Positions 13,148-20,295 of a stretch of 32,383 nucleotides of DNA are shown here, one piece after another. The stretch is taken from contig CAJVXI010000011.1 of assembly GCA_913009635.1 (NCBI GenBank), positions 1 through 32,383 on the forward strand, read 5' to 3'. Position 1 is the stretch's first letter. Every line of letters begins with the position of its first letter. The position numbers and the translations under genes are program-made. Under the pieces are notes generated by a model that saw only the letters and a list, made by a program, of their open reading frames with translations, ran no database searches and was not told the origin of the DNA. The stretch comes from an uncultured bacterium. GTDB taxonomy: Bacteria; Patescibacteriota; Minisyncoccia; UBA6257; UBA9933.

Positions 13148-13190
13148 AATTTTCTAATTGCTAGTCACTAGTGGCTAGTGGCTAGTCAAC
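13148..13190. repeat. ctagt word repeat (gctagtcactagtggctagtggctagt)
   Basis: Seen directly; related words at 20598-20690. Confidence 0.8.
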
Positions 13191-16524: not shown

Positions 16525-16695
16525 ACAAAATTCCAAATAACAAATTACAAATCACAAATCCTTCGACCCCGAGAGCCTCAGGACCGAGGGGTAATATCCA
16601 ATGACCGAAATTCTAATGACCAAAATCCGTCGGGTTTGGTCCGCCAGCTGGCGGATAGAATTTATTTGTTATTTAGTGCTTGAGATTTGGTACTT
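16525..16695. repeat. Second copy of the aattccaaataacaaatt family, with nested GC-rich palindromes
   Basis: aaaattccaaataacaaattacaaatcacaaatcc ... tttatttgttatttagtgcttgagatttgg; contains the perfect palindrome tccgccagctggcgga (16640-16655). Confidence 0.88.
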
Positions 16696-18768: not shown

Positions 18769-19554
18769 TCAAGAACTCAAGTTTTCGGACTTCCGGACAG
18801 ACGACAAACCAATACTGCCATCGCGCCGGTCATCCCACCAGTAGGCGATCCGGAGACCACCAAAATCGAAGCTGCCGACACTGACACGGTGGCCGTCCGA
18901 AAGCAAATCCGAGCAACGAGCATAAATATTTTCAAATAAGCGCTCTCCAGTAGCAAGGTAATGACCTATAATCGTGTAAACCATTATTCGGGCTTTTGGT
19001 GTTTCCTCGTTTTCGACAAGTAAAGCTTGCTGTTCATTCCAGGTTTTACTTGTTGAATTAGGCACGATATCCTTACGAATAAGATGCCAGCTTGCTTCGC
19101 CTTTGTCTCTTGCAAAAGATTGCTTATTATACCAGGAATCTTCGTGAGAATAAAAGAGTTTTTTCTCAATTTTCTCGCGAATCTTAAGAATTGACATCGG
19201 AAAAGCAGCAACGAGAATATGAGTTTTTTTATACTCCTCCAAAACACCCTCTGTGAATGGCACTTCAACAAAAAGACCTAATTCTCTTTCGGTTGGATTA
19301 ACTCTAAGATGTTGGATGGCTTTTTCAATACCAAAAAAGTTTTTACCCATAATAGCACAAGCTGTTTTTTGACTAACTGTGGCTTCATAGCCGCCCTGAC
19401 GAATGAATTGCACCACCTTTGTAGCAAGCTTATTCCCCTTACTTTGAATCACTGACTGAGCTTCGGTATCGCCAAGACCTGCTGCCTCAAGTTTCCAAAG
19501 AAGCTCATGCTCCTTGTGCACCAACAACTTACGTTGGCTTACGATGTTTTTCAT
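18769..19554 (-). CDS. Unknown 261-aa protein with GC-rich 3' end (GGLRIAYWWDDRRDGSIGLSSVRK)
   Basis: Long ORF, consensus promoter upstream, strong terminator downstream; no family assigned. Confidence 0.8.
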   Translation of the reverse strand: MKNIVSQRKLLVHKEHELLWKLEAAGLGDTEAQSVIQSKGNKLATKVVQFIRQGGYEATVSQKTACAIMGKNFFGIEKAIQHLRVNPTERELGLFVEVPFTEGVLEEYKKTHILVAAFPMSILKIREKIEKKLFYSHEDSWYNKQSFARDKGEASWHLIRKDIVPNSTSKTWNEQQALLVENEETPKARIMVYTIIGHYLATGERLFENIYARCSDLLSDGHRVSVGSFDFGGLRIAYWWDDRRDGSIGLSSVRKSENLSS

Positions 19555-19633: not shown

Positions 19634-19661
19634 ATTATACACATATTCCAAGCTTTGTCAA
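19634..19661 (-). promoter_or_regulatory. Consensus sigma70-type promoter for the 261-aa gene
   Basis: Minus strand TTGACA (19661-19656), 16-bp spacer, TATAAT (19639-19634). Confidence 0.82.
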
Positions 19662-19689: not shown

Positions 19690-20058
19690 AATCCCTTCGG
19701 GATTATGCAAAGCATGCCAAAGCGCTCTAACCGGTTAGAGCGCTTAAACTTTTTTTCTACGCATTTCTGCGCAGTGGATATCTACTGAGATATTAACGTA
19801 GATATCTACATTAATATCTCATGAGATATCTCAGTAGAAAAATCCTGCTGCTACAAGTGGCAATAAAAAAATACGTATTAAAATACGTATTTAATTACAT
19901 AATAAATCCTTGAATAAATTCAAGGATTAAAACAAGGATTAATTCAAGGATTAAAACAAGGATTTATTCAAGGATTTCACTTTACTATCTTATACATGCG
20001 ATCGCATGTATAAGATAGTAAATGTGTGGATGTACGTAAATGTTCTGGCGAATGAACA
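19690..20058. repeat. Dense palindrome and phased-repeat island
   Basis: Perfect palindromes at 19720-19745 (26 bp), 19798-19809, 19814-19829, 19881-19892, 19981-20022 (42 bp); caaggatt x5 at 12-bp spacing; several hairpins. Confidence 0.95.
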
Positions 20059-20064
20059 ATAAAA

Positions 20065-20090
20065 AAACTCGCCCTGGATAGGGCGAGTTT
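20065..20090. terminator. Intrinsic terminator of the 20104-20295 gene
   Basis: aaactcgccc-tggata-gggcgagttt with flanking A/T run. Confidence 0.88.
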
Positions 20091-20103: not shown

Positions 20104-20295
20104 CTAAGCAGCAGGAGCATCTTCTCCTTCTTTAGGAGCTTCTCCTCCTTCAGCAGGAGCTTCAGTAGGAGCATCAGTAGGAGCATCAGCAGGAGCATCA
20201 GATCCTCCTTCTGCTTGCTCTTCAACCATAGGAGTGCCACAACACTCTTTTGCCTCGTCTGAGGTAACATTACATGAATTGCATTTATAAGCCAT
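20104..20295 (-). CDS. Small Cys-rich zinc-ribbon/rubredoxin-like protein with Ala/Pro/Asp/Glu repeat tail
   Basis: MAYKCNSCNVTSDEAKECCGTPM then APADAPTDAPTEAPAEGGEAP; own terminator. Confidence 0.75.
   Translation of the reverse strand: MAYKCNSCNVTSDEAKECCGTPMVEEQAEGGSDAPADAPTDAPTEAPAEGGEAPKEGEDAPAA

Follow-up and report, generated by a model that had tools for sequence, protein, structure and literature searches.

Short palindromes scattered between genes are known from the REP/RAYT systems and from REPINs and BIMEs, in which intergenic palindromes of 20–40 bp are often located downstream of genes (PMC3733652, PMC3116915). In REP/RAYT systems, a cognate resident gene is flanked by the palindromes, several lineages are present per genome, and the palindromes form mosaic composites (PMC3733652, PMC3116915). 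A further mark of REP sequences is a GTAG or CGTC tag that stays unpaired at one of their ends (PMC3733652).

Here we describe a dispersed family of perfect or nearly perfect palindromes, found through a 42-bp member in a patescibacterial genome, whose copies bracket genes for a protein with a PaaX_M and Cas2-like part. This arrangement of a palindrome-bracketed Cas2-like gene recurs across the phylum, and we found no earlier description of it; a search of the open-access literature returned no report of palindromes around PaaX/Cas2-like genes.

Results

The 42-bp palindrome and its intergene

The window, i.e., the whole stretch of DNA analysed (32,383 nucleotides), is the entire contig C11 of a 713-kb host genome in 26 contigs that is 98% complete and whose relatives are Wolfebacteria, Liptonbacteria, and other Patescibacteria. 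At 19981–20022 it contains TTTACTATCTTATACATGCGATCGCATGTATAAGATAGTAAA, a perfect palindrome of 42 bp with arms of 21 bp each, zero spacer and zero mismatch, just as the original prediction had described it. It is the longest perfect palindrome of the window, whereas the longest arm in Markov-shuffled windows (n=20) was 7–11 bp. Genome-wide, 32 perfect loop-less palindromes with arms of at least 11 bp were found in the 704 kb of the host that were read, compared with a mean of 0.7 expected from third-order Markov copies. The shuffled maximum of 11 and this genome-wide excess exclude a chance origin of the 42-mer. Its hairpin strength is −29.4 kcal/mol, and a search of Rfam gave nothing near the gathering score, so the sequence represents no known RNA family. 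The features of the intergene and its surroundings are as follows.

18769–19554, minus strand: 261-aa ORF, family unknown, patchy in relatives
19634–19661, minus strand: promoter TTGACA-16-TATAAT, matching the consensus at 12 of 12 positions, for the 261-aa gene
19720–19745: 26-bp perfect palindrome AAGCGCTCTAACCGGTTAGAGCGCTT, solo of family F; its plus strand is also terminator-like
19777–19838: module D, imperfect palindromic, related to C15:11949-11974
19868–19901: module E, palindromic, of the TACGTATTAAAATACGTA type, repeated on C9 and C10
19904–19977: module G, AAGGATT-type repeats
19981–20022: 42-bp perfect palindrome, solo copy of family A with core CGATCG (from sequence, shuffles, and family search)
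20065–20090, minus strand: terminator-like hairpin with a T-run, after the upstream minus-strand small gene
20104–20295, minus strand: small Cys-rich ORF (MAYKCNSCNVTSDEAKECC...), read from sequence, immediately upstream of the mosaic

The 26-bp palindrome, which shares the intergene with the 42-mer, had been overlooked in the original prediction. Module G adjoins family A copies on C9, C11, C12, and C14, and elsewhere adjoins family B. The intergene is a mosaic that holds solos of two distinct gene-palindrome systems and is BIME-like in form. The 42-mer lies between a terminator and the 12-of-12 promoter, upstream of the latter by about 320 nt, a position that makes an operator function unlikely. 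Nor is it the GC-rich stem followed by a T-run that defines an intrinsic terminator: it has no T-run and is absent from the terminator scan list, whereas the neighbouring hairpins are listed.

The 261-aa ORF has no Pfam or PHROG family match; its homologues occur in 13 of 61 genomes, with five matches in one of them (G055). It was rejected as a functional partner of the palindrome, as its homologues elsewhere are not generally palindrome-flanked. At the start of the contig (1–172) are four 43-bp perfect tandem copies, the same 14-mers of which occur about 11 times genome-wide. The contig end (32183–32383) consists of Illumina adapter read-through (GATCGGAAGAGCACACGTCTGAACTCCAGTCAC...) and poly-A, and the ORF beginning MTGVQTCALPIS is an artefact of this read-through.

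Palindrome families of the host genome

The palindromes of the host group into sequence families. In the host genome, the exact 42-mer is present at a single place and its core at nine, with up to 3 mismatches. With a further relative at C13:415-460, family A has ten perfect or nearly perfect members, distributed over C5, C6, C9, C11, C12, C13, and C14. Differences between their arms are largely symmetric, as in the window copy (...ACATGCGATCGCATGT...) versus the C9 copy (...ACACGCGATCGCGTGT...). Other dispersed repeats of the host occupy many intergenes and include CTAGTGG heptamer arrays, TCCGCCAGCTGGCGGA palindromes, and about 13 AATAAACGGCTCACAC hairpins; within the window, such repeats are located at 13160–13186 and 16640–16655.

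The original prediction had remarked that perfect palindromes of this size are usually unstable in bacteria owing to cleavage by SbcCD. The remark was apt, as the SbcD model has no match in the 98%-complete host and is positive in 13 of 14 control genomes. Cas1 was searched for in the host genome and not found. There are three Y1_Tnp matches in the host, one of them below cut-off, on C8, C15, and C23, contigs that contain no family A copies. Phages gave no match to the 42-mer, IMG/VR viral contigs none to family A, and no viral relative of the bracketed protein described below was found.

Bracketed PaaX/Cas2-like genes and their product

Four of the family A copies form two pairs, which bracket the paralogous genes C6:25444-26058 and C13:480-1079. 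Their product has about 200 amino acids, and its C-terminal part matches both PaaX_M (PF20803) and Cas2 (PF09827). Two more distant paralogues have bracketing repeats of their own: the third, on C10, lies between copies of a different CGATCG palindrome, solos of which are located on C2, C9, and C21, and the fourth, on C4, lies within yet another repeat pair.

The protein combines a winged helix with PaaX_M. In an alignment of 28 sequences, the motifs F131-D132-x-P-E and R141-x-W-x-R are invariant. The Cas2 model TIGR01573 matches 28 of 28 members, and a Pfam scan of the 28 members found no Y1_Tnp. PaaX_M is the only PaaX domain matched, the N-terminal (PF07848) and C-terminal Pfam domains being unmatched. 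The predicted structure (mean pLDDT 82.5, pTM 0.51) has E. coli PaaX (8a39) as its closest fold, followed by Cas2 proteins, with weak E-values. Judging from the profile alignment, the invariant D132 appears to be equivalent to the catalytic Asp of Cas2, and the protein may possess nuclease activity. The NCBIfam model would name such stand-alone CPR genes CRISPR Cas2, or PaaX, without a matching function.

Bracketing in relatives and across the phylum

Homologues of the gene were found in 107 of 244 genomes at the order level. The 30 loci examined are the best matches to one query, so the fractions obtained from them do not come from an unbiased survey. An independent BLAST of flank against flank detected a matching repeat pair of the CGATCG type in 22 of the 30, and a palindrome score of at least 9 was obtained on both sides of 20 of the 30 genes and on at least one side of 26, as opposed to 4 of 251 control segments. 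The sites lie as a rule within about 110 nt of the gene, their two centres being about 630–780 bp apart. Their arms vary among loci and agree inside a locus, around a common CGATCG-type core; similarity of the upstream and downstream arms is 0.90 within a locus versus 0.49 between loci, and divergence of the arms tracks that of the protein (Mantel rho −0.27, p about 0.0005). Mismatches concentrate 3–9 nt from the centre, and the core and outer arms are nearly always paired. When the two sites of a locus are compared, 25 positions show a joint change in both arms, where about 3 would be expected for independent arms; the outermost positions are biased towards pairing because the site ends were chosen by score, and 17 symmetric changes remain without them. 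Wobble mismatches show no strand bias, and this balance (17 GT versus 18 AC) led us to reject a reading of the sites as RNA hairpins only.

Across the phylum, 68 of 287 genomes contain homologues, often with the same bracketing and with cores such as CGATCG, CGGCCG, and CGTACG. Many of these sites are bipartite: they combine inverted half-sites with a palindromic core and a spacer that is unpaired, as would be expected if a dimeric protein recognised them. As many sites outside the order have unpaired spacers, perfect palindromy is not required. One genome fetched as a gene-less negative control (G042) contained a palindrome family with the core GCTATAGC, two copies of which bracket a divergent PaaX_M gene, as had been predicted blind. 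Another, G052, has no match to the gene and zero CGATCG-type palindromes of this kind in 200 kb.

Solo sites and their turnover

Solo sites are intergenic, with three inside ORFs that were called purely by length; several sit between convergent genes, and many lie close downstream of genes. In 400 kb of G010, seven cognate palindromes were counted, two at the gene and five elsewhere. Within a genus, the gene itself remains at a single locus. The sister species G020 and G021 have this locus in common but different sets of solos, one G020 solo being absent from G021; one intergene is palindromic in both, with symmetrically different arms. Turnover affects whole intergenes. A recent copy of an 85-bp segment with the downstream palindrome is located elsewhere in G114; it is 98% identical and includes 43 bp of flank. 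No target-site duplication, clean empty site, or clean insertion junction was found, the sites of G020 and G021 being heavily rearranged.

Two further observations concern individual loci. G021 has a CGATCG palindrome pair around a nucleotidase-like gene (L177:1515 and 2232), which is absent at the G020 orthologue. The congeneric species G112 (C3:6247, L074) and G114 (C25:7771, L086) share a tRNA-Leu locus at which the PaaX/Cas2-like gene points in opposite directions and is accompanied by different palindromes.

A second partnership with TrpR-like genes

Family B (GGTACTTCCACGCGTGGAAGTACC) brackets a 134-aa TrpR-like HTH gene at C19:6403-6807 (L056), and family F brackets a second TrpR-like HTH gene at C3:18201-18548 (L005); both families have solos elsewhere, that of family F in the window being the 26-bp palindrome. 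These pairs are a second gene-palindrome partnership, unrelated to that of the PaaX/Cas2-like genes. What the two partnerships have in common may be DNA binding and not cutting, since a nuclease domain is absent from the TrpR-like proteins.

Discussion

We consider it reasonably probable that the 42-mer is a solo copy of the dyad-symmetric dispersed sites that belong to a DNA-binding protein of the PaaX_M/Cas2-like type, in an arrangement that resembles REP/RAYT. The genes are bracketed by sites that match within a locus and diverge symmetrically, and solos turn over; from these sequence patterns we infer that the protein binds the sites and that the sites spread. The blind prediction in G042, the recent copy in G114, the solos between convergent genes, the separate repeats of the C10 and C4 paralogues, and the invariant residues and Cas2/PaaX matches of the protein also speak for this reading. 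The protein would bind as a dimer, with its helix-turn-helix parts on the outer half-sites and its Cas2-like parts over the CGATCG centre. Less certainly, the sites may multiply and be re-made as perfect palindromes in a REP/RAYT-like manner, with the resident gene acting in trans. The invariant Cas2-type aspartate makes it possible that the protein nicks or cuts DNA at the dyad or at an extruded hairpin. In a genome without SbcCD, perfect palindromes would be able to persist. A model of terminal inverted repeats cut at their dyads was rejected, as the inner arms of the two sites resemble each other no more than each resembles the outer arm of its own site. The original prediction, which is partly supported as a whole, pointed in the right direction with function or recent origin and with a recombinase site or element end, in that dispersed family copies bracket a specific gene; for the replication or transfer origin that it also listed, we found no supporting gene or feature.

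Several observations stand against this binding and spreading of sites by a resident protein. The TrpR-like genes, without a nuclease domain, are bracketed alike, so binding alone may suffice. For that reason real weight remains with the main rival, a PaaX-like transcription factor or a roadblock or insulator whose brackets autoregulate or insulate its own gene and whose solos are fast-evolving regulon or termination sites. The winged-helix and PaaX_M architecture, the bipartite half-site and core form in other classes, the TrpR-like layout, and the many solos close downstream of genes all agree with such a regulator, but a downstream site is found just as regularly as an upstream one, convergent genes enclose several of the solos, sister species show no conservation of solo positions, and the 42-mer lies some 320 nt away from the promoter, past the terminator of the previous gene; on balance we regard it as rather unlikely. 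That no target-site duplication or clean empty site was found, the single locus of the gene within a genus, and the 43-bp flank carried by the recent copy also weigh on the preferred reading, as do the balance of GT and AC mismatches and the unpaired spacers outside the order. The first two also count against a small transposon with palindromic ends, in which the gene and both sites would move jointly and solos would be excision scars or non-autonomous remnants. Although the spacing of the brackets, the opposite gene orientations at the tRNA-Leu locus in G112 and G114, and the pair of palindromes that G021, unlike G020, has around another gene would suit such an element, no near-identical multi-copy elements occur within a genome and no relative was found in IMG/VR viral contigs; we consider it slightly more doubtful than the regulator.

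The remaining alternatives are far less probable. Template switching might have perfected ordinary bidirectional terminators or hairpins that have no link to a protein, which would fit the strong hairpin and a genome without SbcD. However, the 42-mer has no T-run and is not listed by the terminator scan, and this very improbable origin is already disfavoured by the place of the 42-mer in a family and by the way one gene family is specifically bracketed throughout the phylum. An assembly or library artefact, which the original prediction had allowed for and which the adapter read-through at the end of the same contig might suggest, is hardly credible given ten diverged copies at separate loci internal to contigs and equivalents in dozens of other, independent assemblies.

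A bolder proposal, which we put forward only tentatively, is that these sites constitute a new class of mobile or selfish palindromes, in which a stand-alone Cas2/PaaX-like winged-helix protein would recognise and cut the CGATCG dyad of the palindromes that bracket its gene and would spread them. If true, this would be an analogue of REP/RAYT in Patescibacteria built on the Cas2 fold without Cas1, and a protein that cuts or moves its sites would bear on how that fold works without Cas1. With its cognate sites identified, an orphan protein family becomes a protein-DNA pair that is open to testing, and the arrangement may account for long perfect palindromes in genomes without SbcCD.

Comparison with known systems

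The C-terminal domain of the protein matches Cas2 models (TIGR01573 in all 28 members) and keeps the D, R, and S-V-W positions, including the conserved aspartate, of Cas2/VapD-type nucleases. In contrast to CRISPR Cas2, however, it has an extra N-terminal helical/wHTH part, and its repeats are dispersed and gene-bracketing rather than arranged as a spacer array; as the host has no Cas1, a CRISPR reading was rejected. The protein shares PaaX_M and its best fold match with the PaaX repressor, but it is about 200 aa long as opposed to about 305 for PaaX, has one of the three PaaX domains, and is associated with sites that lie on both sides of the gene and are dispersed. A small gene between two hairpin-forming ends is also typical of IS200/IS605 elements, whereas the gene bracketed here does not encode an HUH transposase and no asymmetric ends or target tetranucleotide were found.

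The layout is most like that of REP/RAYT, with dispersed, multi-copy short intergenic palindromes and a resident gene flanked by its own cognate palindromes. However, RAYT is a Y1 (HUH) transposase, while the protein here contains a wHTH and a PaaX_M/Cas2-like domain and no Y1_Tnp; the sites are symmetric to their ends, without an unpaired GTAG or CGTC tag, and number about 5–16 copies as opposed to hundreds. Because the Y1 transposase and the tag are both missing, we do not file the system as a member of REP/RAYT despite the like layout; it would instead represent a second kind of gene-palindrome partnership beside it.
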